From Candidatus Competibacter phosphatis (GTDB lineage Bacteria > Pseudomonadota > Gammaproteobacteria > Competibacterales > Competibacteraceae), in the NCBI RefSeq assembly GCF_012939995.1, contig NZ_SPMZ01000026.1:1-64000 (forward strand): DNA of 64,000 bases, in the 5' to 3' direction. Shown here piece after piece: positions 24,191-49,480 of the stretch (its first letter is position 1; each line of letters starts with the position of its first letter). A model generated the notes under the pieces. It made no database searches. It saw only the letters and a program-made list of their open reading frames with translations, and was not told the DNA's origin. A program made the position numbers and the translations under genes.

Positions 24191-25633
24191 CTAGGGCTCC
24201 CGCACCAACCGAAACTCCAGATCGTCACTGAGCGGATCGGCGCCTGCCCGCCAGTTGCCGCCGCGAATCGCCACCGCTTCCGGCAACCGACTGGCGCAGC
24301 GCTGCTCCTGACCCTCGTACTCCCGCCGGTATTCGGAGCAGGTCCACTCCCGGACCTGCTCATCCGAATCCGGCGCGGCGGCCATCACGCCGGCACGGGC
24401 GGCATACTCCCATTCCAGTTCGGCCGGCAGGCGGTAGACCTTGCCCGTCCGCGCGGACAGCCAGGCGGCGTAGTCCATGGCCTCTCTCCAGGTGACCCGA
24501 ACCGGGCCATCGGACATCGCGCCGGATGCCGGCGGCGCGGTCCGACCGCTGGCTTCGGCAAAACGACGGTACGCATCCAGGCTGACTGTGTACCGACTGA
24601 TCGCAAAGTCAGCGCCAGGCACCGCCACCCAATCCGACTCCGGCGGCGCGGACGGCGGTTGAGCAGCCGCACCGCTGGCCGCCGGAGGCACGGTCGCGAC
24701 CGGAGTCGACTCAGCGGCCGGTGAGGCTCCAGGCTGTGAGCCGGCGGGCGTCGGCGCCGCCGAAGCCGAAGCCGAAGCCGAAGCCGAAGCCGAAGCCGAA
24801 GCCGAAGCCGAAGCCGAAGCCGAAGCCGAAGCCGAAGCCGGGGCAAAGTAGAACTCGCCACGCAGCGAGGAAGCGACCCAGGGAATCTGGCCCCCGCCAC
24901 TCTCCTGCTCCACCGCCACCAGCACCTGCTTGAACACCTGTTCGAGGCTAAGGCCGGGCATGCTCATGGCCGCCAGCAGATGGCGGGTGTAGGGGCTGTT
25001 GCGGCTGGCGCCGTCCTGCGAAACCGCGCCGGGCGCGGTGGCGTAGGCGATAAAGGTCCCGGCCGGACCCTCCATCCGCGCCAACCCCCGGCTTCCGCCG
25101 AAACCCCGGGTAAAGGGATTGTTGCGGCAGGCATCCAGAATCACGATGTTCAGTTCGTTGCCGGCGGACTCCATCGCCCGCAGCACGATGTCGGCGTCGA
25201 CACCCTCGTCGGGCACTTCGAACTCCTGATGGATGTCGGCGCCGATGGGGATCAGGTAGTTCTGCCCCTTGAGTTGGACGCCGTGCCCGGCGTAATAAAA
25301 CAGACCGACGCCGCGCCGCTGCCGCAACTGTTGCTCGAATTCCCGCAGCGCCAACCGCAGGGTCTGGCGGTCGGCGTCGAGCCGTTCGATGACCTGAAAC
25401 CCCAATTCCCGCAGTTTGGCCGCCATGTCGTGGGCGTCGTTGGCCGGGTTCTTCAGCGGCGCGTCCTGATACGCGCCATTGCCGACCACCAGCGCGGTGC
25501 GGGATTCCGCCAGCACCGCTCCGGGGGCAAGCAGCGCGACCAGACCGACCCAACCGGCCAAAACCATTTTCGACCAGGAACAGCTTCTTTTCTCACGTTC
25601 GATCAGCAAACGCATTGCAAGCACGAAGTTCAT
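24191..25633 (-). CDS. Secreted caspase-like protease with Ser-Ala linker and FGE/SUMF1-type domain
   Basis: After an N-terminal hydrophobic segment (residues about 23-42) the caspase p20-type domain runs to about residue 260, with catalytic His in FYYAGHGVQ (about H117) and Cys in ILDACRNNPF (about C169). A Ser-Ala dipeptide repeat (about 265-295) and a Pro/Ala-rich stretch link it to a C-terminal formylglycine-generating-enzyme fold (ISRYTVSLDAYRRFAEA, VTWREAMDYAAWLS, YRLPAELEWEYAAR, IRGGNW). The FGE part probably binds rather than oxidises. It converges with the cytochrome gene and diverges from the glycine-zipper gene. Such caspase-FGE fusions are known as a domain architecture; their substrates mostly are not. 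Confidence 0.88.
   Translation of the reverse strand: MNFVLAMRLLIEREKRSCSWSKMVLAGWVGLVALLAPGAVLAESRTALVVGNGAYQDAPLKNPANDAHDMAAKLRELGFQVIERLDADRQTLRLALREFEQQLRQRRGVGLFYYAGHGVQLKGQNYLIPIGADIHQEFEVPDEGVDADIVLRAMESAGNELNIVILDACRNNPFTRGFGGSRGLARMEGPAGTFIAYATAPGAVSQDGASRNSPYTRHLLAAMSMPGLSLEQVFKQVLVAVEQESGGGQIPWVASSLRGEFYFAPASASASASASASASASASASASASASAAPTPAGSQPGASPAAESTPVATVPPAASGAAAQPPSAPPESDWVAVPGADFAISRYTVSLDAYRRFAEASGRTAPPASGAMSDGPVRVTWREAMDYAAWLSARTGKVYRLPAELEWEYAARAGVMAAAPDSDEQVREWTCSEYRREYEGQEQRCASRLPEAVAIRGGNWRAGADPLSDDLEFRLVREP
24759..24840. repeat. Hexanucleotide tandem repeat (GCCGAA)n inside the caspase gene
   Basis: About 13.7 uninterrupted copies of a six-base unit encode the Ser-Ala linker on the bottom strand. 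Because the unit is six bases, gain or loss of copies keeps the frame and changes only linker length. Confidence 0.95.
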
Positions 25634-25851: not shown

Positions 25852-26535
25852 ATGCACGTTCACCATTCAGGCACGAAATGGCTCGTCGCCGTCGCGATCG
25901 GCGCGACTTTGTCGGGGTGCGCCACCAACCCCGACGGCACCACGAACACGAACGACCAGCAGGCGACCGTCGCTCAGGGCGCGGTGTTCGGGGCGCTTGT
26001 GGGCGGGCTGCTCGGCGCCGCCGTCAGCGGCGACAACCGGGGCCGAGGCGCTTTGATCGGCGCCGCGGCCGGTGGTTTGATCGGCGCCGGCATCGGCAGT
26101 TCCATCGCCGAACGCAAGGCTCAGTACGCCAACGAGGAGGACTTCCTGGTCGCGGAAATCCGCCGTAATCAGGAGTTCATTCAGGAAGCCGACGCCCAGA
26201 ACCGCCAGCTTTACCAGGAAATTGCCCAACTGGACCGCGAATCGCAGCGGCTGGCGCGGCAATATCGGGCGGGCAAAGCCTCGCGGGACGCCCTCGTCCA
26301 GCAGAAAGCCACCGTGGAAAAGCAACTGGCCAAGGCCAAACAGATCAACTCACTGGCCGAGAAACAACTGGCCGATGCCGAGCAGGTCCATCAGGAATCC
26401 CAGCAGAAGCGAGGACCGCAGGATCAATATACCCGGCAGTTGGAGTCCAATCTGGTGGAACTGAAGGAAACCCGGCAAAAATCCAGTCAGAACGTCGCCA
26501 GCTTGCAACGGGTTTACGACAGCATGTCCATCTAG
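25852..26535 (+). CDS. Glycine-zipper coiled-coil lipoprotein
   Basis: The start ATG six bases after GGAG opens a lipoprotein signal ending LSGC, so the mature protein should be lipid-anchored at Cys23 or so. A glycine-zipper region follows (GAVFGALVGGLLGAAVSG, ALIGAAAGGLIGAGIGS), then a coiled coil from about residue 95 to the end (EIRRNQEFIQEADAQ, LAKAKQINSLAEKQLAD). Probably an outer-membrane or periplasmic structural protein. It is the first of four rightward genes that seem to form an operon. Confidence 0.8.
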   Translation: MHVHHSGTKWLVAVAIGATLSGCATNPDGTTNTNDQQATVAQGAVFGALVGGLLGAAVSGDNRGRGALIGAAAGGLIGAGIGSSIAERKAQYANEEDFLVAEIRRNQEFIQEADAQNRQLYQEIAQLDRESQRLARQYRAGKASRDALVQQKATVEKQLAKAKQINSLAEKQLADAEQVHQESQQKRGPQDQYTRQLESNLVELKETRQKSSQNVASLQRVYDSMSI

Positions 26536-26601
26536 CACAACAACGCTCGAAGCATCCCCCCGCCCGCCATCGGGCAAGCCGGGGATGGGGAGATCACGAT
26601 C

Positions 26602-27100
26602 ATGGCATTCACACGCGGTTATGCCGGTATCCTGAGTCTGCTCCTGCTGGGAGGCTGCGCCGCCGATCCGACCAACGATCCGCACGGCGGCGGATTCTTC
26701 GGCGGCGTGCACGGGCTGGCGGCCGGCGACTACGAAACGCGCCAGCAGGGCTTGCAAGAGCAGCGGGACGACAGCCTGAACCAACTGCGCGCTGCGGGAA
26801 GAAGGCGCCTATCTGGAAAGCGAGCGACAGATGAAAGCCGACGAGGTGGCCGAGCAGCGCCGCCAGTTGGCCTCGCTCAAGGCCAGAAACCGAGCACTCG
26901 CCAAGCGGGTCGATCAGTTGAAGCGATCCAAATCCGCCACCGATCAGCGCACGGCGGAGTTGCAGCGCAAGCAACAACAATTGAACCGCGACATCCAGGA
27001 GTTCGAAGTCCAGCTCGACAAGGGCCAACTGACCGCCGCCCAGGCCAATTCCAAACGGCTCAGCCTGGAACGGCAGTACGACGCCATCAAGAATCTGTGA
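26602..27100 (+). CDS. Small coiled-coil lipoprotein, one frameshift
   Basis: A lipobox LLLLGGC near residue 19 marks a lipoprotein. The frame breaks near 26791-26800 in a GCGC tract; skipping one base joins DSLNQLR to LREEGAYLESERQMKADE and then a coiled coil running to the end (LASLKARNRALAKRVDQL, KQQQLNRDIQEFEVQL). Total length is about 166 residues. It resembles its upstream neighbour in layout (lipobox, short Gly-rich part, coiled coil) but not in sequence. Function unknown. Confidence 0.65.
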
Positions 27101-27117
27101 GACGCGGGACGTGGGGC

Positions 27118-27819
27118 ATGAACGATGCTTGCCGGATGCCGGCACTGTTGCTGGCGGCATGGATCATCGCGATGCCGGCCGCCTTGGCCCAGGATAGCGA
27201 GCGGAACCGCTATTTCGTCCAACAAATGATCGAAATGGCTGCCACCAACAACGAGCAGGGAGTGGCGGGCATGCAACGGATGCTGGAACAGAACCCGAGA
27301 CCGGCGGCGCCTGATCAGGCGGCGGCGCGCGCCGCCTTTCAGCATGGTCTGGCCCTGTTTGGGCAGGATGCGCTGGACGCGGCGCTGGAGGCATTCCAGC
27401 AGGCCAGCCGGGACGATCCCGGTAACGCCGACGCCGCCAACTATGCGGGGCTGGTCTACCGCAAGATGGGTCGCTTTCCCGAAGCGGAAGCCGCCTTGCA
27501 ACAGGCGCTCGCCCTCGAACCCACCCGGGCCGTGGCCTGGTTCCAGCTCGCCCAAGTGTACGGCCTGACCAACGACGCCGACCGCGCACTGGGCGCCTTG
27601 GCCAACACCTACCGCTTTGCCCAGAATCAGATGCGCGCCGAGGAAATCCTGCGCAACATCGCCGAAAACGAGGCGGCCGACATCCTGCGCAACGCCGCTC
27701 TGGAAACCTTGCGGCTGTTCCATCTGCCGGCGGAAGCCGTCATCGTCCCGCCGCTGCCGGCCAACCCCGACGGTATCGTGCCGATGAACAGCGCGCCGAT
27801 CCCCACCCGCGCGCCATGA
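27118..27819 (+). CDS. Secreted TPR protein
   Basis: A signal peptide (LLLAAWIIAMPAALA) leads into a 30-residue segment (YFVQQMIEMAATNNEQGV) and then tetratricopeptide repeats from about residue 75 to 175 (FQHGLALFGQDALDAALEAF, ANYAGLVYRKMGRFPEAEAA, AWFQLAQVYGLTNDADRAL). It shares this order and many residues with the first 220 residues of the next gene, so the two are tandem paralogues. Its last codon overlaps the next start (ATGA). It probably works as a periplasmic scaffold. Confidence 0.8.
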   Translation: MNDACRMPALLLAAWIIAMPAALAQDSERNRYFVQQMIEMAATNNEQGVAGMQRMLEQNPRPAAPDQAAARAAFQHGLALFGQDALDAALEAFQQASRDDPGNADAANYAGLVYRKMGRFPEAEAALQQALALEPTRAVAWFQLAQVYGLTNDADRALGALANTYRFAQNQMRAEEILRNIAENEAADILRNAALETLRLFHLPAEAVIVPPLPANPDGIVPMNSAPIPTRAP

Positions 27820-29249
27820 ATTTCCCGCTTCTCGCCTTTCGTGGCGTGGCGCTGGCACTGGCGCTGACCGGCGCTTTGCCCGCCTCGGCCAGTCAATACG
27901 AAACGATCGATTATTACGTCCAGCAAATGATCGCCCTGGCCAGCGCCAACGAAGAAGCTGGCGTACTGATCTTCCGGGAACAAATAGAAAACCTGCCACG
28001 ACCGGAACCGGGCGATGCCCGGCAGGCCAGCCCTTTCAGCCAGCACGGCCAGGAGCGGTTAGCGGGCGGCCAATTGAAGGAAGCGTTGGCGGCGTTCCGC
28101 CAGGCCTTCATCGCCGATCCCGCCGATCCGGAAATTGCCGGCGCGCTCGGCCTGACCTATTTGCGGTTACGCCGTTTCAAGGAAGCAGAACGTTTGTTGG
28201 TCTACGCGCTGTCCCTGGCACCGACCCGTTCGGCGTCCTGGCTCGCCCTGGGACAAGTCTATGGTCAGCAGGGCGACGTCCGCCGAGCGACCGGCGCGTT
28301 CGTCAACGCCCTCCGCTTCGCCCAGGACCAGCCACAAGCGACCGAACAACTGCGGCAACTGGCCACCGCCGACCCGGCGGATGCCGTCCGCATCGGCGCG
28401 TTGCAAGCCTTGCGAGCTACGAAGCCCGCGCCCGCTACCAAGCCCGTTCCGCTCACTGATTCCCCACCCCCTCAACCGGCCGTGCCGGTCCAGCCTGGGG
28501 GTGATTCCAGGCACGTTTCCGAAATCCAAACCACCCCTTCCACCACGACAACCCGCGACCTACTCGGCTCGCTGAAACAAGGTTTGGCCTTGTTGGCAAA
28601 ACCGGCCGACCCCGCCACGGCGGAGCCAACCGCGTCACCGGCGGCGGATAACGGCAATCCTGGGCAACGCATTTACCGACGCGGCATGCCGCTCACCTGC
28701 CTGATCGTTACTTTCCAGGATGGCAAAACCGCCAATCTGGGCAGTGGCCTGCTGGTATCGAAGGATGGGCTGGTCATCACTAACAACCACGTCATCGATA
28801 AAGCCGAGAACCTGGCGGTCCGCTGCGGCGACCGGGAGTCGGTGGCTCGCATCCGCAAACGCAGCAAGGAACCGGACTTGGCGTTGTTGGCAACCAAACT
28901 CAAAAGCAAGGAAAGCTTTATTCTCAACCAAACCTACAGCCAGGATCTGATCGGGCTGGATGTGTTCGTGATCGGCAACCCCTACGGCTTGGAGAGTACC
29001 TTTTCGACCGGCGTGATCAGCGGACTGCGCGAGATCGATGGGGTCCGCTACATTCAGATTTCCGCGCCGATCAGCCCTGGCAACAGCGGCGGACCGGTCA
29101 TCCTGCGGGACGGTACCGTCATCGGCGTCGCCACCATGGGGTTGAAAGTCGGCCAAAACCTCAATTTCGCCATCGCCGCGGCCGATGTCATTGCGTCCCC
29201 GATTTTTGCGCCGAAGCAAATGCAAGTCCGCTCGGTGAGCGCGCCCTGA
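27816..29249 (+). CDS. Secreted TPR and trypsin-like serine protease fusion
   Basis: A signal peptide and TPR region (residues about 1-200, paralogous to the previous protein) are followed by a Pro-rich linker and a DegP-like protease domain from about residue 290. The catalytic triad is complete: His in ITNNHVID (about H325), Asp in EPDLALLA (about D354), Ser in SPGNSGGPV (about S424). No PDZ domain follows, unlike DegP. The protease would act in the periplasm, perhaps recruited by the TPR part. It ends 37 bases from the end of the convergent FHA gene. Confidence 0.88.
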   Translation: MNFPLLAFRGVALALALTGALPASASQYETIDYYVQQMIALASANEEAGVLIFREQIENLPRPEPGDARQASPFSQHGQERLAGGQLKEALAAFRQAFIADPADPEIAGALGLTYLRLRRFKEAERLLVYALSLAPTRSASWLALGQVYGQQGDVRRATGAFVNALRFAQDQPQATEQLRQLATADPADAVRIGALQALRATKPAPATKPVPLTDSPPPQPAVPVQPGGDSRHVSEIQTTPSTTTTRDLLGSLKQGLALLAKPADPATAEPTASPAADNGNPGQRIYRRGMPLTCLIVTFQDGKTANLGSGLLVSKDGLVITNNHVIDKAENLAVRCGDRESVARIRKRSKEPDLALLATKLKSKESFILNQTYSQDLIGLDVFVIGNPYGLESTFSTGVISGLREIDGVRYIQISAPISPGNSGGPVILRDGTVIGVATMGLKVGQNLNFAIAAADVIASPIFAPKQMQVRSVSAP

Positions 29250-29286: not shown

Positions 29287-31005
29287 TCACTCCACCGCCC
29301 CCAGCGCCAGTACGTAGCCCCCCGCCACCAGCAGATCGCCCGGCTTGGCGGCGGCGGCGGTGTCCACGCCGGGACTGAGCACGTCCAGCACCTCGCCCGA
29401 CGGTGCCAACCGGTAAACCGACATGTTCTGGCTTTCCAATTGCACCCACCAATCCTCGCGCCGCACCTGCACCCGCAGATGGCGACGCGACAACCCCAGA
29501 TATTCGGCGCTGATACCGACCGTCTTGTTCGGTTTGCCCTCCCAACGCAGAGAACGCGGATCGGCCAGCAGGCGTGGCGCGATATCCGCCTCCGAGCCAC
29601 GACCGAAACTCACCGCCCGCTCGCGCGGGACCGGCAACGCCAGCGGCGCCGGTAGCCGCACCCAGCCGAGATAATGCCCCGTCATCGACGATGGCGCGGC
29701 GAGGAATTCCAATTCCAGCTCCGGAAACGGCCGCCACACGCCGGGCAGCTCCAGCGGCGCCGACAGCCCCACGACCTCGCCAAACAACCGATCCGCGCTG
29801 TCGATCCGCAGCCAGGCGGCGGCGTCGGGATGGTTGTCCAGCACCAGTCCACCCGCGCGGTTGAAGCTGATCCGCCAGTCGCTGATACCGGCCGCCGCAT
29901 AGGTCGACAAGCGTTGCAAGGCGACGCCCACCACCTGCAAGCAAGCCGCCGGTCGACGGGGAATCCAGGTGTGCTGGTCGAGTCCGGCCGGCGGCGCGGG
30001 CGCGGGTGGCGGGGAAGACTCCAGAATGGCGGCCGGCGGCGCGGACGGTTCCTCGAAATGTATTGGGATGCCGAACACCGGCTCGCGCCGGCCCCAATGA
30101 TCGATCATCGTATAATCGCCGTCCGCCGGGGCGGATGGCTTCGATCCCGATGCCGGCTTGCCCAAATCGGCGACCGGGGCGACGGGCCGCCGTTCCGGCC
30201 GCGCCGGCGATTCTGGCGACGCCTGTTCCGGCAACGTTGGGAGCTCCACATCCGCCGACAGCGCCACGACCCGCAGCCGCAAACCACGACCACGATGGTC
30301 GCGCGCCACGAAGCCACCCTGGCCGTCGCCGGTCAGATTCAGACAGGCCGGCGGCTCCTCCACCACATCCACCAGGGTCGGCGCCTCGGATCGCTGGAGC
30401 AGCAATATCGATTCGTTGCCTGGGAACGGCCAAGCCACCACCGCGTAACTGCTGGCACGCCGATCACCGTTGAGCAGCGTCAGCCGCTGGCCGGGATAGA
30501 TCGATCCCACTTCCCGCCAATCGCTTTGCCCATCGGCCGTCACCTCGATCCGAAAGACCGGCGCTTCATCATCGGCCGGCAGATGGATCGCCCGACCGAA
30601 CAGTGCCTGCACCTCGCCCGGACGCAACACCGGGTCCGGCTCCAGGCGATAACGAATCGTCGCGTTCTCGGCCAGATGCTCGCCCAGATCCCGTTCGTGC
30701 AAACGCCGCAGTTCCCGCAGGAGCAAATGGCGACCGAACCCATCCTCCAGTCGTTCGTCACGAATGGAATCGCGTTCCGAAATCCGGATGACGACGTGGC
30801 TGTAGTAGATTTCCTGGCGCTGGCCGGCGGAACGCGCGATACGTCGCGGATGGCGCTTGAGTGCTTCCAGCAGCAACACCCCCTCCTGGCCGATCCGAAC
30901 CCGATCCCACAACCATTCGGCGTTGAAGATATCCGGCACCGCGCGCAAGTTCACGCAGATGACATAATCGGAAGCAATCAGGGCATTAGGGTGAGTGGTC
31001 ATCAT
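29287..31005 (-). CDS. FHA-domain protein of the SEDS/PBP operon
   Basis: The 572-residue protein has no signal peptide or membrane helix. An FHA domain occupies the C-terminal 110 residues: FGRGSEADI, then the phosphothreonine-binding pattern LSRRHLRVQV and LESQNMSVYRL. The N-terminal 330 residues are of unknown fold; a Pro/Ala-rich linker follows. Its start overlaps the end of the SEDS gene. FHA domains read phosphothreonine, so the nearby Ser/Thr kinase is the natural partner. Confidence 0.75.
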   Translation of the reverse strand: MMTTHPNALIASDYVICVNLRAVPDIFNAEWLWDRVRIGQEGVLLLEALKRHPRRIARSAGQRQEIYYSHVVIRISERDSIRDERLEDGFGRHLLLRELRRLHERDLGEHLAENATIRYRLEPDPVLRPGEVQALFGRAIHLPADDEAPVFRIEVTADGQSDWREVGSIYPGQRLTLLNGDRRASSYAVVAWPFPGNESILLLQRSEAPTLVDVVEEPPACLNLTGDGQGGFVARDHRGRGLRLRVVALSADVELPTLPEQASPESPARPERRPVAPVADLGKPASGSKPSAPADGDYTMIDHWGRREPVFGIPIHFEEPSAPPAAILESSPPPAPAPPAGLDQHTWIPRRPAACLQVVGVALQRLSTYAAAGISDWRISFNRAGGLVLDNHPDAAAWLRIDSADRLFGEVVGLSAPLELPGVWRPFPELELEFLAAPSSMTGHYLGWVRLPAPLALPVPRERAVSFGRGSEADIAPRLLADPRSLRWEGKPNKTVGISAEYLGLSRRHLRVQVRREDWWVQLESQNMSVYRLAPSGEVLDVLSPGVDTAAAAKPGDLLVAGGYVLALGAVE

Positions 31006-33368
31006 TTCCTTCCTCGACCGCGACGGCCAGCGCCACGATCGGCAACACGAATAGCACCAGATGGCTACCGGCGGCCGAGAGCAGCGACATCGGCTGGCCC
31101 ATCACCGGCAGAAATCCCAGATTGGTACCCCATGACACCAAAAAAATGCGCGCCGAGCAAGGCCGCGCCGCCGCACAGCGCAAAATAGGCGAAGCCGCCA
31201 AACGCCACCAATCGTTGGTCATTGCGGTCGGTCCGTCTCAGGGCGCGATCGGCGATAGCCACCAGCAGCAAAACGAAGGCCGTCTGCGTAGCCACCAGCA
31301 GCAACGCCGCCAGACCGCCGTAGCGATTCAGGAAAAACGTCGGCGTGAAGTCGTTTTCCACCAAGGGAACGGTCATGACCCGCCCGTTGGCCGTATCGCT
31401 CCAGACCGCGCCGGTCCAGCCGCCGGCCCGGATCGCCTCCAGCGCCCGGCGCGGTTGATAGCCGGCGTGCGGGTATTGCTCCGGCGCCATCCAGGCTCGA
31501 ATCCGAATCGGCTGCAAACTCGGCGGCAAGCTGTCCGGCCATTGACGCAACCCCATCACCCCACTCGCCAGCGACCCGACCAGCACGAGCAACGCCAATC
31601 GGCCGCCCCACCGCCAACCCAACCGAGGATGCACCCGCAGGTAGCTCCATGCCAATGCCAGCACCCAGAGTAGCAACAAAACCAAGGGCGAAAAATCGCG
31701 CAGGATTCCCAGCGCAAAACCGCTCGCCACCAGCAACAATAGCACCGGCCCCAAAGAGAGCGGCCACCGGGAGAGTTTTCGGGCGCCCCCCTCTCCCGCG
31801 CCGACCGTCAGCGCATGAGCCGCCAACAACACCAACGCCAGCTTGGCCAGTTCGAACGGCTGGAAACCGCTCCAACCGCCCTCGTCGCCAAACGCGGCCT
31901 GCGCCGCCAGCAATATCAGCGCCGCGCCACCCAGCGCCAGCGGTCCCCAGCGCGCCAGCCGAAAACCCAGTCCGTCGACCGGCCGCCAGCGGCGCCAGAC
32001 GCTCCGCCAAGCCCACGCCAGCCAGCCGAATGCCCCGGCCAGCGCCGCCCCGCCACCGCCAAAGCGCGGCCAACCGGACTCTTCGGCGCCGGTTCCCAAT
32101 TGCAGCAGGGTGATCCACCCACCGCCCAGCAACAGCGTCAGCACGACCAGCAAACCAACGCTCCACGGCGAGCGTACCGCCGTCAGCCACAGCAACAGCA
32201 CCGGCCATGCCAACAAGTAGGGCCACAGCACCGGAACGGTCAAACTGCTCAGATAGAGACCCAGACCAACCCCGGCCAGCGCCAGCGCGCCCGCGATCCG
32301 GCCGCGATCGCCCGCACTCGGCCAGCGCCCGTCGCGCGTCCGAACCGGCCAGATCAACCCCAGCGCCAGCAGGGGCAGCGCCAGACCCAGCGGCCAGGCC
32401 AACGCACCCAGGCCGGGCGGCCATAGCCAAGTCACCGAGTGCCAGTGCACCTCCACTGGGGGCGTGACCGGACGCGGGGCTATCGCGGCGGGCCAGCGCT
32501 GGGCGCGGGCCACGACCGCCAGTTCCAGCACCGGGACGGTCCGCAATACCCGATACCGGGTACGACCGATGATCAAGTCGTCGCCGATCGCCAGCGGGAC
32601 GGAGCGCCGCCACAGCGATTCGGCCTCCGGTCCGCCCGCCGCCACCGTCACCGCCGGACCGTCCGGCCGCCCGGCCTCGCCGGGGCGCAGCACGAAACCC
32701 GAGTCGACGGGCGCCAGCACCACGGTATCCAGCGGCACCCCCACCAAGCCCAACCGGTCGGCGCAATGGACGCCGCCCCCCAAGCGCAGCGGTCGCCGGA
32801 CCAGGCCGAGCCATCCCAGATCGGCCATGCGCTCGCGCCAACGGCTCCGCCAGTCCGGGTAACATTCGGGCAGCGGTTGGCCATCCAGGCGCAAACGAAA
32901 ACCATCGTATTCCCAACGCCGCCCACCCTCTTGCAGCGCCAATCGCCCACCTTCCACGCCAAGTACGGTAAAGGTCTGACCGTCCGCGACAAAGGCCGCT
33001 CCCGCTCGCAGTGACCATTCCCGGATCGGCTGCTCGTCGCCGCCACGGGCCGGTTGCCACAACACCTGCTTGTCGGTGGCGATATTGGTCAGCCGCCAAC
33101 CGCCGCCGACTTCGCGCCACAGCAGAATATGTTCGCTGTCGGCCTGCGGCGCCCGCAATGCCTCGCGACCCAACATGACCGTTTGGCCCGGTTCCAGGGT
33201 GACGGTCAGCACCCAGGGCTCCAGCCAGGCTGGTGCTCGATACACGGTCCACCCCGCCGCCAACACCGGCAACAACCAGAGCAACGTCAGCCACCAGCGA
33301 CCAGCCAGCGCCGCCGGCCAGCGAGGCGCGACGGAATCGCCACCGGCACGGAGTCCGGGTTCACTCAT
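30986..33368 (-). CDS. SEDS-family (FtsW/RodA-like) peptidoglycan polymerase with large N-terminal extension, one frameshift
   Basis: After one helix (residues about 26-44) comes a non-cytoplasmic region of about 280 residues of unknown or FHA-like beta type (LEPGQTVMLGREALR, SLRAGAAFVADGQTF), then about ten helices of a SEDS core. Family marks are FQPFELAKLALVLLAA, the catalytic-Asp loop VPLVENDFTPTFFLNRYGG (Asp about 673) and, after correction, NLGFLPVMGQPMSLLSAAG. The frame breaks at A7 31140-31146; dropping one base joins the true C-terminus (VLPIVALAVAVEEG). Its start overlaps the PBP stop and its end overlaps the FHA start. Expected to polymerise lipid II with its PBP partner. Confidence 0.82.
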
Positions 33369-36300
33369 CGCCTTTCGCCTCGGCCAGCGCCGTCAGCCAA
33401 GCCGCCGTCAACTCGCCGCATTCCGTACCGTCGGGACCGATGGCGGGACTGATCCAACAAGCGAAGGCCAGACGTCGATTCTCGCCCGGCAGCGCGCCCG
33501 GTTCCAGCCAGCCCACCAGCCAGGCATTCGCCGCCGCTTTCGTGGAATCCAACCATGCGGCGCCAGCCTTCAAATAGAGCGACGACCGGATCGCATCGAA
33601 GCGCAAATCCGCGAAAGCGGTGCGCAGCGGTTCCTCGTCCAGCGCCAACCGCATGCCCCGCCGAATGCGGTCGGTGGCGATGTCGAGCGCGGTTGCCGCC
33701 GCGTCTCGCGCCGGTTGACCGTTCAGTTCGACCAGCACTCTCGGCGGCGTCCGCTGGCCGGTGGCGATGACCGCCGCCAGCTCGGCCAATTGTAGCGGCG
33801 TGACATACACGCCCTGTCCCAGCGCCGCGCGCCGGACTCGTCCGCGATCGCTCATCGGTTCCAGCGTCGCCGCGCTGGCTCGCAGGACATCGCTCGCCTC
33901 GATCAGGTTGGCCGGCAACAAACCGCCATCCAGATCCCGGGTCGAGTCGAAACCGAGTTCGGCCATGATATTCAGCAGCGGCCGTACCCCCCGCAACGCC
34001 GCCGGAGTCAGGGCTCGCGCGCTGGCCAAGCCCGACGAGCCCGCATCGTCCAGCAACGTGGCATCGGTGGTCTCCACCAGCCAGGCAAACCAACCGCGCG
34101 CGGAATCGCGCAGCGCCTGAATCAGGCCATACCGCTCATCGCCATGGCGACGCATCCGTTCCAGCAAAGTCTGCCCGCCATCCTGTTCATCGCAAACCGC
34201 CGACGGTTCGCGACCGCCAGCGTGGCTCGGATAACACGCCGCGTCCGCCGCAAAACCATGGGCCAGCGCGAGCGGCCAGCTCGCCAGTGCGTCGGCGGTC
34301 AAGCCCACCAGCGCCGCCGCCAGTTGCGGCCGGTGACCGGCTTCCCGCTCCAGCAACAAGGCATCGACCAGCTCGAAAACCGAGCCAACCGAGTCCGAGC
34401 CGTCGCCGTCGTGCTGCCAGGCTCGAACCCACAACGGATTGCGGCGCGGTCGCACAGCCGCCACGAACGTGGATAGATCGCTCCAGGCAACGCCGACCGG
34501 CGGTTCCGGGCTACCGGCCACGGCCAAGATATCGCCCTGGTCGGCATCCAGCACGATCAGGCTCGTCACGCGCTCTTCCCGCCGGGCATCGGTTTCACTC
34601 GCCGCAACGCCGATGGCCGGCGATCGTTCCAGCAGCGCCCGCCGCGCCGCCTGCTGCAAGCGGGGGTCCACGGTCAGGCGGGCCTCGACCGCCGTTGCGC
34701 CATACCGACCCAACCGCGCCAGCACGCCGCCCACCGAACCGGCATGGACCGGACCCAGGCCGACCAACGCCGCTAACCCCAGATCCCACACTGCTCCGGT
34801 CGGTTGGCCGGCTTCCCACAACAGCGTCCCTGCCCGGTCGCGCAACGTCACTTCGGCCGGCGACGGTCGGGACGGGTCGCCACCATTGGCCGCCGGCGAA
34901 TCGTACCAGCGCAGGCGACCATCGACTCGGCGGATATGGGCAAAGTCGTAACGGTACAAACCGGGGAATGCCTCGGCCGGCAATGGTTGAAAAACCAGTT
35001 CCAATTCCGTGGCGCCGTCCCGCATTTCCAACCGCAACCAGCGGGCCAGCGCGTCCCGCCCGGCGCAGGGTCGCGCGTCCACGCAACGCGGGGCGCTGGC
35101 CAGCACCGTGGCGCCGGTCACGGCCGGGGGGCCGCCCACCACCAGCAGTTCCAGCCGCTCGCCGGCCTGGGCCGGTCGCGGCAGGCTCAACCGAAACCGC
35201 ACCGGCCACCGCTGCTCCAGCTCCGGCCAACGCGCCACCCGTCGCCAGGCTTGCCAACCGTGTGGCGCTTCGATAAACAAGCGTCCGGCCAGCAGCGGCA
35301 TGGACTCGGTCAGCATCAGCGGCACCTCCTTCCAATCCGCCCGCCAATCTCCGTTCAGATCGGCATTCTCCGGCCGCCAGCGCACCGCCGCCAGCAGTTG
35401 GCGCGCGTTGAACGTAGCCACTTGGCGGCGTACGTAGCGGCCGGTGGTGCTGAAATGCAACGCCTGATGCAAACGTTGTATTTCATCATTCCACGGTCCA
35501 TCCAACCAAGCGTGTTCACCGTCACCGGACGCCAGCAGGTCGGGACGGACACGAGCGAACGCGCGGCGCAAGGGTAGATCGGCCGGCGCGATGGCGATCC
35601 GACCATCTTCGCCCGACCGCAGCAAACCAGCGGCCAGCGACCGCTCGAACAGTTCGGCGTCTTCGCGAGGCGGGGGCGGCACGGCGGGCGCATACTGGCC
35701 GGGCGCCAGGCGGAATTCCCGCGCCGAACCGTCGCCCGCATACCACAATACGGTTCGCGGTTCCGCGTCGGCCATCCCGAGCTTTTCCAGCGGAGGGCCG
35801 TATACCTCGATCCGCAGCCGCCCAAGCGAACAGGCGCGATCCTCCAACCTTCGCACTCGCAGCGCGCGATCCCAGCGCCCGGCGATCACCGGGCCGACGT
35901 TCCACAGCAACCAGAAATCGCGCTGGAACGCCAGTGCCGGCCCCGCGCCCGTTTCCGCCGTGTCCGCCAGCAGCAAGACCGGCCGCTGATCATGCAAGGT
36001 CACCCGCAACGACCCCGCGTCGGCGTACGATCGCGGCGGCATGCCCGCCGGTTCCGTGGTCACGACGAAAGCCGGCACGTCCACCCCATCGGGACCGTCA
36101 TCCAGCAACGGGTTCTTCAGACCGCCATCCATCGCTTGGGAAGGATGAGCGGCACGATTGGCGGCGGCGACTTCCCGCAGCCGTGACCAGTCCCAGCCGA
36201 CGTACAGTGGCGCCATGACAGGTCCGGCGGCGGAATCGACGCTTTGGTCGCACAAAGCCAGATCCTGCTGACCGATCGGTTGGCCCGGTCCTCGTACCAG

Positions 36301-36540
36301 CAGCAGCCCGTGGCGTGGGATAATCAGATGAAATCCCGGGCCGGCGGGAATGGTCACCGCCTCCTCCGGCAAGCCCGTCGGCAACCGCGCCGGTGCCGCC
36401 GGCAGGGGCGTCGGCCGGGTATAAATCGCCGCCAGTTGCGCCCACAAGGCCCCCACGCCGAGAGCCATGCCCAGCGCGAACAGGACCGACGGCAACAGCC
36501 GGCGCGACGCGGCGCAATTCAGTGTCGATACAGATTTCAT
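33361..36540 (-). CDS. Very long, degenerate class B penicillin-binding protein
   Basis: One helix near the start (SVLFALGMALGVGALWAQLA) anchors a 1059-residue protein. The last 430 residues follow a transpeptidase fold (LTVDPRLQQAARRALLE, SLIVLDADQGDILAVAGS, GQGVYVTPLQLAELAAVIATG). The three active-site motifs are altered: SxxK reads SVFE (Ser about 720, Lys replaced by Glu), SxN reads SAR, and KTG reads KAG (about 991). The N-terminal 560 residues are far longer than the usual dimerisation domain and are not recognised. It is probably a non-catalytic partner of the SEDS protein, whose start overlaps its stop. No Shine-Dalgarno is obvious. Confidence 0.75.
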   Translation of the reverse strand: MKSVSTLNCAASRRLLPSVLFALGMALGVGALWAQLAAIYTRPTPLPAAPARLPTGLPEEAVTIPAGPGFHLIIPRHGLLLVRGPGQPIGQQDLALCDQSVDSAAGPVMAPLYVGWDWSRLREVAAANRAAHPSQAMDGGLKNPLLDDGPDGVDVPAFVVTTEPAGMPPRSYADAGSLRVTLHDQRPVLLLADTAETGAGPALAFQRDFWLLWNVGPVIAGRWDRALRVRRLEDRACSLGRLRIEVYGPPLEKLGMADAEPRTVLWYAGDGSAREFRLAPGQYAPAVPPPPREDAELFERSLAAGLLRSGEDGRIAIAPADLPLRRAFARVRPDLLASGDGEHAWLDGPWNDEIQRLHQALHFSTTGRYVRRQVATFNARQLLAAVRWRPENADLNGDWRADWKEVPLMLTESMPLLAGRLFIEAPHGWQAWRRVARWPELEQRWPVRFRLSLPRPAQAGERLELLVVGGPPAVTGATVLASAPRCVDARPCAGRDALARWLRLEMRDGATELELVFQPLPAEAFPGLYRYDFAHIRRVDGRLRWYDSPAANGGDPSRPSPAEVTLRDRAGTLLWEAGQPTGAVWDLGLAALVGLGPVHAGSVGGVLARLGRYGATAVEARLTVDPRLQQAARRALLERSPAIGVAASETDARREERVTSLIVLDADQGDILAVAGSPEPPVGVAWSDLSTFVAAVRPRRNPLWVRAWQHDGDGSDSVGSVFELVDALLLEREAGHRPQLAAALVGLTADALASWPLALAHGFAADAACYPSHAGGREPSAVCDEQDGGQTLLERMRRHGDERYGLIQALRDSARGWFAWLVETTDATLLDDAGSSGLASARALTPAALRGVRPLLNIMAELGFDSTRDLDGGLLPANLIEASDVLRASAATLEPMSDRGRVRRAALGQGVYVTPLQLAELAAVIATGQRTPPRVLVELNGQPARDAAATALDIATDRIRRGMRLALDEEPLRTAFADLRFDAIRSSLYLKAGAAWLDSTKAAANAWLVGWLEPGALPGENRRLAFACWISPAIGPDGTECGELTAAWLTALAEAKGDE

Positions 36541-36641
36541 GTGCAATGATATAAAGGGGGAACCAGCTTGACCCGGCGCCTATCGATTAGTTTACTGGAT
36601 TACCATTCTGCCCCGAGAATGCCCAGCCTGGAGAATGCCCC

Positions 36642-38912
36642 ATGCAAAGTGGTGAACGGATCGCGATCAATGGCCGAAGTTACCGGCTCGGCGCCATTCT
36701 TTCGCCCGGCGCCGGCAGTTACGGTCAAGTCTGGGCGGCCACCGATGACGCCGGGCGCGCTGTCGCCCTGAAGTTCATCAATACCGAAGCGATGTCACAG
36801 GCCGACCCCGCCTTCCAGGGTCATTGGCGCGCGCACCTGGAGCGGGAGATCGCATTTCTGGACGGCCTGGGCGCCGAACAGTCGCGGCATATCGTCGACC
36901 TGCTCGACCACGGTCAAATCGACGGTCAGCCGGTGCTGGTACTGGAACGGTTGCAGGCCAACCTCGGTCAATGGCTGACACAACAGCGGCGGGACGGCGC
37001 GCCGCCCCAGGAACTGGATCGCATTCTCGACTGGGCCAGGCAGATTTTGACGGGCTTGGCGGTGATCCACCGCGCCGGCTTCGTCTACCGCGATCTTAAA
37101 CTCAGCAACATCCTGATCGGCGACGACGGCGATCTGCTCAAGCTGGCCGATTTCGGTTCACTCAAACGTGAGAACGGCGACAGCACCCGTTCGTTCATCG
37201 GCACTCCCGCCACCATGGCGCCGGAGCAGATCCTGCCGGTCGGTCACGGCGCGGGCGGCTGCGAGTATGCGGTGGACTACCGCGCCGATTATTATGCTCT
37301 GGGTCTGCTGCTGTTCAGCCTCATCACCGAACAGCCGACCACCGAGGCCCAGCGCCGGCTCGGCCAATTGCTGACCCTGCATGGTCAGGAAGGCGCTGCC
37401 CAGCGAGGCGAGCAACTGGGCGGCCTCACCGAGGACGAACAAGAGCAACTGCGGCGCTCCATCGAATTCTGGACGGTACCAGCGCTACCGGAGCATGGAC
37501 ACGGCGGCGCGGCGACCCTGTTGACGGACCTGATCGAGCAATTGCTGGCGCGCGATCCCGCCGACCGGCCAAGCGATGGTGACGCCATCCGCGCCGTGCT
37601 GGATGCGGCGCGTTCCGGCCAGTCCATCCTGCCCGCCCCGATTGCGGAACCGGATTGGGACCTGCCGCTGTCGGCCGATCCACCGCGTCGGCACCCGCGC
37701 CGCGCCGACGCACCGACTTTTTCGCCCTGGCTGCGGCGATCGGTGGGACTGGCTGGGATGCTTGGGTTGGCGAGCGTGTTGGCCTGGACGCTCCTCCTCC
37801 AGCCAGCCGGTCAGATCCGACAGGATCGCCAGCAGTCGCCGGACGCCGTCGCCAGCGCCCCAGTGGTATCCGATACCGTGCCACCGACGGAACCGACCGT
37901 GTCCCCGACTCCGACACCCATGGTCGCCGACACGCCACCACCGCCGGCCGCCACCACCGCGCCGGAACCGCTCCAGGATGTGGACACCGCGCCGGTCGCG
38001 GCCAATACCGATCCACCGGCGCCCGCCGAAACCGATGCCGGAACCGAACCCGAACCCGAACTGGCAACGACTGTCACCACTCCGTCCGAGATCGAACCCG
38101 CCGAACCCGCCGAACCCGTCGAACCGGTGGTTATCGTCGCTCCGCCCGCGATCGTGACGCCCGCCACGCCGAAACCCGCCCCGTCAGCTCAGCCCAAATA
38201 CTCGATCAAGGCCAGAACCGCCAAAGCGGCTCCTGCCGCGCCCATCGTCGAGGAGCGCGCGCCGGCACCCGCTTCGCGGATCACGAAATCGGCATCGAAA
38301 CCAACCGCGCCAACGGCGGCGACTTCCAACAGCACCCAGCGTACCGCGAAAGCCACTCCGGCCACCCGCGCCAGTCGCACCGCCACAGCGGCACCCGCCA
38401 CCGCAACTCCGCGCGCGACCCGACCCGCCACCGTGCCCGTCAAGCCAGCGATCGCCCGCGCCGCGCCGCGCCCACAACCAGCGTCGCCAACCCTGCCGCC
38501 GATCGAACTGAAATCGCGCTCGCAACCCACGGCGTTGAAGCTACCGCCGATCGAACTGAAATCGCGCTCGCAACCGGCGCCACCGACCCTGCCGCCGATC
38601 AAGCTGGTGAGCCACTCCAGCGGCACCGCGCCAGCCACCGCTCCCGCCAAACCGCCCAGCGCGCCGATGAACCGCTCCAAGCCGGCGGCAGGCACGACCG
38701 GCGGCGTTTCCGGTCCGACCGAAACCTTTACCCGCTGGGTCAGCCGCACCAGCACGGCAGTAGGGTCGGAAGTGCAACGTGGACTGGAAAGCGTCAACCG
38801 GGCGCTGAACGGTAACGGTGAGACCGCTCAGGTCGAACGTCGCGATCACTGGTCTCCCCGCTATGTCGAACAGTCGGATTCTCTTCCGCAACGGCGACAG
38901 GAATACCGCTGA
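36642..38912 (+). CDS. Transmembrane Ser/Thr protein kinase with repeat-rich outer domain
   Basis: The kinase domain fills residues about 14-330: P-loop GAGSYGQV, ATP lysine in VALK (K44), catalytic loop YRDLKLSN (Tyr for the usual His, D151), ADFGS (D170) and APE (E195). A helix at about 367-386 (GLAGMLGLASVLAWTLLL) follows. The outer 370 residues are rich in Pro, Ala and Thr, with a repeated LPPIELKSRSQP motif; there are no PASTA domains. It is transcribed away from the PBP with about 100 bases between starts. The GGAG ahead of the ATG supports this start. It likely phosphorylates the FHA, SEDS or PBP proteins. Confidence 0.88.
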   Translation: MQSGERIAINGRSYRLGAILSPGAGSYGQVWAATDDAGRAVALKFINTEAMSQADPAFQGHWRAHLEREIAFLDGLGAEQSRHIVDLLDHGQIDGQPVLVLERLQANLGQWLTQQRRDGAPPQELDRILDWARQILTGLAVIHRAGFVYRDLKLSNILIGDDGDLLKLADFGSLKRENGDSTRSFIGTPATMAPEQILPVGHGAGGCEYAVDYRADYYALGLLLFSLITEQPTTEAQRRLGQLLTLHGQEGAAQRGEQLGGLTEDEQEQLRRSIEFWTVPALPEHGHGGAATLLTDLIEQLLARDPADRPSDGDAIRAVLDAARSGQSILPAPIAEPDWDLPLSADPPRRHPRRADAPTFSPWLRRSVGLAGMLGLASVLAWTLLLQPAGQIRQDRQQSPDAVASAPVVSDTVPPTEPTVSPTPTPMVADTPPPPAATTAPEPLQDVDTAPVAANTDPPAPAETDAGTEPEPELATTVTTPSEIEPAEPAEPVEPVVIVAPPAIVTPATPKPAPSAQPKYSIKARTAKAAPAAPIVEERAPAPASRITKSASKPTAPTAATSNSTQRTAKATPATRASRTATAAPATATPRATRPATVPVKPAIARAAPRPQPASPTLPPIELKSRSQPTALKLPPIELKSRSQPAPPTLPPIKLVSHSSGTAPATAPAKPPSAPMNRSKPAAGTTGGVSGPTETFTRWVSRTSTAVGSEVQRGLESVNRALNGNGETAQVERRDHWSPRYVEQSDSLPQRRQEYR
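38496..38575 (+). repeat. Direct repeat in the kinase outer domain
   Basis: A 32-base unit starting CCGCCGATCGAACTGAAATC occurs twice with a 48-base period, and a diverged third copy starts near 38598. It encodes LPPIELKSRSQP twice and LPPIKLVSHS once. Confidence 0.85.
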
Positions 38913-48828: not shown

Positions 48829-48866
48829 CGGGTCCACCCGTTCTCAATGACGGGTGGACCCGTTTC
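48829..48866 (+). terminator. Rho-independent terminator of the PDH operon
   Basis: A 13-base stem (CGGGTCCACCCGT and its complement) with an eight-base loop begins nine bases after the lpdA stop and is followed by TTTCTT. Confidence 0.85.
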
Positions 48867-48895
48867 TTGAATTCACTCGATCAGGACCCACTTGC

Positions 48896-49480
48896 ATGGC
48901 CGCACTCGAAGTCGTGAAAATCGACATGAAGCAAATGACGGCGATTCCCCAGGAGACCAGCCAGACCTGCTGGTTCTCCTGCTATCAAATGATGCTGCAA
49001 TGGAAAGGCTACGGCACCGGCAAGATCGGCGATTACAAAGGGGAATTTCCGCCCGCCCCGATCAAGGAAAAACTCGAAGCCGCGAAAATCGATTGGAACG
49101 ATGCAGTATCGACCGGGCTCAAGGGCAAGGATTTTCGCAAGGCTGCCCACGCGCTGGGTTTGGAAGCCAACGGTGTGGGCCAGCCGTGGACAACTCAAGA
49201 CTTAAAGCGATTCTTGTCGTACCCCAGCCCCATCTGGGTGGCCGGCAACTGGGATAACTTTTTCCATGTCGTCGTGGTGACCGGGGTCGAAATCGACAAT
49301 GACCTGGACTGGGACGAGGTCGGCACGCTCAAGGATCGGTCGAAAGTCACGTACATCGACCCGAATTGGAAAGGCGCCAAACAAGCGAGCATCGAAACGC
49401 GATCTTGTTATTCCTGGTTGCCTGGTTCTTATGCATACAAAGGCATCATCGGCGCTTGGCAAGTGTGGAAGAAAAGCTGA
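48896..49480 (+). CDS. Papain-like (C39-type) cysteine protease fold protein
   Basis: The 194-residue protein has the order of a papain-like fold: Cys in QETSQTCWFSCYQMML, His in FFHVVVVTGVE and Asp in VTYIDPNWKG, all in the expected order. There is no signal peptide or transporter. PF12385/Peptidase_C39-like families often supply effectors or self-processing domains; which applies here cannot be told. The chosen ATG follows AGGA; an upstream alternate start would add 14 residues within the terminator. Confidence 0.65.
   Translation: MAALEVVKIDMKQMTAIPQETSQTCWFSCYQMMLQWKGYGTGKIGDYKGEFPPAPIKEKLEAAKIDWNDAVSTGLKGKDFRKAAHALGLEANGVGQPWTTQDLKRFLSYPSPIWVAGNWDNFFHVVVVTGVEIDNDLDWDEVGTLKDRSKVTYIDPNWKGAKQASIETRSCYSWLPGSYAYKGIIGAWQVWKKS

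Follow-up and report, generated by a model that had tools for sequence, protein, structure and literature searches.

The linkage of pstP, rodA, pbpA and PASTA kinase genes has been described in Actinobacteria (PMC6554272). Control of a linked pair of a SEDS protein and a penicillin-binding protein (PBP) by a kinase and forkhead-associated (FHA) proteins is known in these organisms, and no Gram-negative report of it was found in the literature searched. A SEDS protein is activated by its partner class B PBP (bPBP) through the pedestal, the membrane-proximal part of the latter (PMC6207328), and four residues of FtsW, D297, R243, W138 and Y379, are required in Escherichia coli (PMC8765783). SpoVE and SpoVD of Clostridioides difficile form a dedicated accessory SEDS-bPBP pair, in which catalysis by the bPBP is partly dispensable and the SEDS partner is needed (PMC12713402). 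Here we describe a locus of Candidatus Competibacter phosphatis, a Gram-negative bacterium of wastewater (Competibacteraceae, Gammaproteobacteria), that joins these functions, at positions 29287-38912 of a 64,000-nucleotide stretch (hereafter the window), which is the first 64 kb of the 99-kb contig NZ_SPMZ01000026.1 in a genome of 4.39 Mb and 121 contigs.

All four open reading frames (ORFs) that the original prediction had placed in this locus were confirmed. A gene for a transmembrane Hanks-type Ser/Thr kinase of 756 amino acids (aa; 36642-38912, forward strand) is separated by 95 bp (36547-36641) from the divergently transcribed gene of a class B PBP-type protein of 1061 aa (33361-36546). 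The latter shares an 8-nt overlap with the gene of a SEDS-family protein (31065-33368, 767 aa as read), and a putative FHA-type protein of 572 aa is encoded next (29287-31005); these three genes, and all their parts located below, lie on the reverse strand. On balance, and with a confidence little above even, we read the locus as an accessory SEDS-bPBP peptidoglycan-synthase module under Hanks-kinase/FHA control, with a dead PBP kept as the partner of the SEDS protein. This reading is based on the linkage of the genes and their homologies, on which catalytic residues persist and which are gone, on losses that recurred and on purifying selection. Two better-scoring SEDS genes on other contigs of the genome, taken for RodA and FtsW on account of their neighbour genes, and four better transpeptidase matches elsewhere indicate that the SEDS-PBP pair of the window is an extra one. 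It should be added that the FtsW-type gene of this genome (L002, G000:C9:14753-18703), which adjoins a murG-type sequence, is broken over two frames.

Compared with the actinobacterial pstP-rodA-pbpA-pknA-pknB-fhaA/B locus, the module likewise links a Hanks kinase, a SEDS protein, a class B PBP-type protein and a putative FHA protein, with a PP2C phosphatase in related Burkholderiales loci. It differs in its divergently transcribed kinase without PASTA repeats, in a PP2C encoded elsewhere in the window genome, in a PBP that is dead or truncated, and in a SEDS protein with extra transmembrane (TM) helices and a predicted FHA-fold ectodomain, so that the likeness is one of analogy. With RodA-PBP2 and FtsW-FtsI it shares a SEDS core with the catalytic Asp and central motifs, and a bPBP-type partner in an overlapping adjacent gene; unlike them, it is an additional pair, linked to kinase and FHA genes, its partner is often without a transpeptidase, and two residues required in FtsW have no equivalents. 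As for SpoVE-SpoVD, the enzyme there is intact and the loss was experimental, whereas the losses described here, of the active site or of the complete domain, arose in natural lineages.

With the PBP as query, 22 of 59 related genomes gave matches, each of them within the family of the window. Around these matches the gene order was constant and the flanks were variable, and the divergent arrangement of kinase and PBP was preserved. A scan of genome contigs, which reached beyond the phylum to which sampling was otherwise confined, led to 26 independently fetched loci, the window not counted; the relatives taken from named records are mostly labelled as Competibacteraceae, Competibacter or Contendobacter metagenome-assembled genomes. 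According to tblastn, the kinase gene adjoins the PBP or PBP stub in 19 of the 26 loci, belonging to several genera, as it does in the window; the FHA gene was found in 25, and three of the seven kinase-less loci are cut by contig ends, the other four being genuine exceptions. Recurrence of the four-gene set with changing flanks argues for linkage beyond chance, and the check set beforehand in the original prediction, that relatives keep the four genes together, was thereby passed in most loci. Moreover, a profile of the SEDS ectodomain matched 24 of 39 family genomes.

Degeneration of the PBP active site, which had been claimed for the window, is borne out by comparison with active relatives. 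The window protein scores slightly below the cut-off of the Transpeptidase model (4.6e-4, 19.9 bits versus 22.1), against 48-55 bits for its relatives, which supports the homology. The motifs of active class B PBPs are absent from it: SxxK reads SVFE (residues 722-725; 34372-34383), SxN reads SAR and KTG(T) reads KAGA (residues 993-996; 33559-33570). All five window-genus genomes have degenerate forms (SxFE; SAR, ASR or SSR; (K/R)xGA), and the motifs of G009 (AVFS, DFP, KAAT) are degenerate in a different way. Intact motifs are found in G016, G024 (two copies), G028, L067, L068, G809 and G1040, and thus span two Contendobacter-type lineages, a Burkholderiales genome and a genome of another class. 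Shortened PBP genes of 331-383 aa are present in G020, G025 and G032, and in G035 the match is limited to the stub and a mid region; the shortest genes (164-204 aa) belong to G015, G026, G027, G008 and G031, and in G023, G029, G022 and G034 the match covers approximately the stub segment only. In many relatives an N-terminal TM helix with a membrane-proximal segment is the whole PBP gene that remains.

The transpeptidase was lost several separate times: in two lineages the PBP has become a dead pseudo-enzyme, and in others it has been shortened to some 380 or some 170 aa. In the SEDS tree, forms with an active PBP stand near the base; the window genus requires one change, the short forms require two or more, and G009 adds another; the tree has a long G809 branch and six open forks, which leaves its root and exact order not firm. 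The dead PBP is thus most likely a derived state and not the ancestral design. Pairwise dN/dS of the dead transpeptidase domain (0.28-0.32, versus 0.22 for an active pair) indicates that the domain is constrained and not simply decaying. In the window genus, the conserved membrane-proximal segment (residues ~291-385; 35392-35676) shows values of 0.08-0.14, and a stub held under such strong constraint once the catalytic domain has gone would be expected from the mechanism in which bPBPs activate SEDS proteins. A structure prediction of the PBP, with a predicted local distance difference test (pLDDT) score of 47, was not used.

Homology of the SEDS protein, likewise part of the original prediction, is supported by PF01098 (FTSW_RODA_SPOVE), which the window protein matches at 1e-11 and 44.9-46.3 bits, above the cut-off of 26.4; relatives score 52-66 bits, and the family profile aligns with FtsW of Pseudomonas aeruginosa (E 5e-8). 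In the RodA and FtsW equivalog tests the window protein falls far short (TIGR02210, 41.1 bits and TIGR02614, 39.1 bits, versus a cut-off of ~337). In the loop that precedes TM8, Asp673 (codon 31350-31352) is invariant and lines up with D297 of E. coli FtsW, the catalytic Asp; the family also keeps an Arg aligned with R243, as well as the QPFELxK and RDFSPL motifs. A 7-base homopolymer (31140-31146), which has six bases in the nearest relative, shifts the frame, so that the last residues are frameshifted as read; the conserved frame extends to ~30986 and overlaps the start of the FHA gene. This may be a sequencing error or a real frameshift.

The ectodomain of the SEDS protein (residues 48-310; 32439-33227) is present in neither RodA nor FtsW. 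The AlphaFold model (mean pLDDT 63.9, with a poorly predicted SEDS core) shows, in this order, one TM helix, a domain rich in beta strands (~48-310) and further helices; within the ectodomain pLDDT is mostly 66-88, with weak stretches near 100-120 and 230-260. FHA domains head its VIA-align match list (Z 8.5 to 6.5), the best being FHA-2 of Rv1747 (Z 8.5), with 74-99 residues aligned at a root-mean-square deviation of ~2.3-3.6. The model thus points, with the reservation due to middling Z scores and modest model quality, to an FHA fold, for which no precedent on a SEDS protein was found in the literature searched. A Foldseek search with the same model, in which the core is poorly predicted, returned nothing under E 0.001, and RodA and FtsW were absent among the matches listed. 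If the TM helices are numbered backwards from the QPFEL loop, the ectodomain falls in the periplasm, a location that two invariant Cys residues would fit. At the position of the phosphothreonine-binding Ser of the FHA SxxH motif, Competibacteraceae sequences have Asp77, which makes phosphothreonine binding by the ectodomain unlikely. Apart from the module, a SEDS paralogue with a related ectodomain (L165, G028:C63:4000-23999) adjoins a kinase-FGE gene, with neither PBP nor FHA detected nearby.

The kinase is of the Hanks type (Pfam Pkinase 2.4e-34), with its K, D (YRDLK), DFG and APE motifs conserved across 11 aligned homologues. A cytosolic catalytic domain (residues 1-340) is followed by one TM helix (~368-386) and a long Pro/Ala-rich outer tail with PPIELKSRSQ repeats; in the window genus dN/dS is 0.12-0.15 for the domain and 0.55-0.61 for the tail. 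As had been claimed, the kinase has no PASTA repeats detectable with Pfam, and it reaches 75 bits, with its kinase domain only, against the cut-off of 450 of the PASTA-kinase equivalog NF033483 (PknB_PASTA). In the cytosolic FHA-type protein, a GR...SRxH pattern near the C-terminus (GR 468-469, SRRH 506-509) is invariant across 18 homologues and, taken with an N, hints at a putative C-terminal FHA-like domain; dN/dS of the gene is 0.14. A PP2C orthologue of the module type (E ~1e-100) is present in most family genomes, including genomes without a SEDS match; in the window genome it lies at a separate locus (C13:49389-50324) and adjoins an FGE-domain protein. Its tie to the module is suggested by adjacency in Burkholderiales, where it was found near the module in four out of four loci.

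Beyond the family the ectodomain profile is rare. Among 369 genomes sampled across the class, none but family members matched, and the distant matches are G677, G903, G932 and G809, all of one other order, taken as Burkholderiales, and G1040, of another class. Homologues of all four genes are adjacent in G809, together with PP2C and a caspase-FGE gene; its FHA homologue was detected by hhalign at 6e-26, and its PBP is 32-35% identical and has STFK, SIN and KTGT. The G677 locus, with a similar layout in its two genus-mates, combines kinase, SEDS, FHA, an SH3 protein, PP2C and a second FHA-type protein. Gene order and strand vary between G809, G677 and Competibacteraceae, and the Burkholderiales kinases (332-354 aa) are without the tail. 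G1040 holds homologues of PBP (hhalign 7.6e-22) and SEDS (2.7e-36), with no module-like kinase or PP2C found by tblastn within ~20 kb of the pair; identification of the gene preceding the pair as an FHA homologue was unsupported (E 0.033). Some genomes of 6-7 Mb within the phylum gave weak matches (E ~1e-4) to the N-domain of the FHA protein; these were read as chance, the two regions listed out of five fetched showing unrelated genes, and weak ectodomain matches in G967, G1005 and G565 were tentatively read likewise.

A mechanism consistent with these data can be proposed. The module would act separately from the RodA and FtsW systems of the genome, with an enzymatically active, dedicated SEDS glycosyltransferase bearing the periplasmic FHA-fold domain and paired with its class B PBP-type partner. 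The kinase would phosphorylate module proteins in the cytosol, the FHA protein would bind and read this phosphorylation and then switch or position the SEDS enzyme, and PP2C from its other locus would reset it; in this way the module may regulate wall synthesis. The ancestral partner would have been an active transpeptidase, of which the window lineage and several others would have lost the activity or the whole catalytic domain; the membrane anchor would have been retained together with the juxtamembrane segment, in all likelihood for activating or holding the SEDS protein. Where the module PBP is dead or truncated, other PBPs would do the cross-linking. A bolder version, which we hold to be possible but rather doubtful, is that kinase and FHA protein drive a SEDS polymerase without a transpeptidase of its own, that the PBP has repeatedly been cut to a membrane activator of ~170 aa, and that the periplasmic FHA-fold domain is a built-in sensor or docking site.

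Several observations weigh against a kinase-controlled peptidoglycan synthase. The kinase does not adjoin SEDS in the four genuine exceptions among the 26 loci (L067, G008, G015 and the second copy of G024) or in G1040, and in three related Burkholderiales loci (G677 and its two genus-mates) no PBP is nearby. The FHA-type protein, named so from its motif, has neither a Pfam match nor, with full and C-terminal profiles, a PDB sequence match, and its Burkholderiales homologues are without the motif His. Furthermore, the SEDS family is without W138 of FtsW, the loop being missing, and without Y379, where SYGG reads SA(A/G)G, so that activity or substrate may differ. The last point, along with the repeated loss of the transpeptidase, the large additional ectodomain and the PBP-less Burkholderiales members, would also suit a SEDS protein with another substrate or a non-catalytic role, such as exporting or polymerising a different lipid-linked sugar or serving as a scaffold, the transpeptidase having been lost once the product was no longer peptidoglycan. 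We consider this unlikely, if still of appreciable weight, as the catalytic Asp and the central-cavity motifs are conserved and the partner stub and the active PBPs of relatives point to peptidoglycan.

A further reading, in which the module belongs to the actinobacterial pknA/pknB-pbpA-rodA-pstP-fha locus as a divergent form and arrived as one block, by inheritance or by transfer, appears improbable. The same four or five functions are present, PP2C joining in Burkholderiales, and the map order FHA-SEDS-PBP-kinase resembles the mycobacterial map. Yet PASTA repeats are missing, the SEDS protein scores equally low with the RodA and FtsW models, SEDS and PBP have extra domains, the nearest solved kinase structures are a mixture of bacterial and eukaryotic ones, and order and strand are not constant among the distant loci. 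The term "actinobacterial-style" of the original prediction consequently holds as an analogy of linked functions and is unsupported as kinship, in view of the PASTA-kinase score, the PP2C at another locus, the FHA gene transcribed after SEDS and the G1040 pair without detectable kinase; its alternative wording, an "independent or highly diverged control system", agrees with the data. A defence or stress island of kinase, FHA, caspase-like and trypsin-like genes, with the wall genes as effectors or targets, is very improbable: the kinase domain matches PADLOC kinase models, but with generic scores, and a caspase-FGE gene (24191-25633, also in G809) and a TPR-trypsin gene (27816-29249) are nearby, but they come and go while the core stays, the surroundings are mostly housekeeping genes, e.g. 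for pyruvate dehydrogenase, and inheritance looks largely vertical within one family.

Should the accessory-synthase reading hold, the kinase-linked SEDS-bPBP module is, as far as found, new for this group of bacteria; the literature searches found no report on the window locus. With its gradation of active PBPs, pseudo-enzymes and short stubs, the module offers a natural experiment on the question whether cells retain class B PBPs for SEDS activation independently of the transpeptidase, and the stub offers a small candidate activating segment that is directly testable. The module also suggests a little-known, signal-controlled mode of cell-wall building.

Some neighbouring genes accompany the module. 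The TPR-trypsin (HtrA-like) gene (forward strand; Pfam Trypsin_2 4.5e-25), convergent with the FHA gene, is a partly conserved neighbour, and roughly half of the loci have a member of its family next to the FHA end. Genes for a Gly-zipper protein and a TPR protein, with a small ORF between them, form a series (25852-27819, forward) that is found again at the FHA end of several loci; near the module, Gly-zipper-like genes also occur in G677, G903 and G1040. The caspase-FGE gene (reverse strand) encodes a protein with caspase and FGE-sulfatase domains, and similar genes stand beside the module in loci of the window genus, in G809 and at the second copy in G024. Farther away, after the pyruvate dehydrogenase genes, a papain-like cysteine protease of the AvrRpt2 family (Pfam 5.5e-12) is encoded at 48854-49480 on the forward strand.

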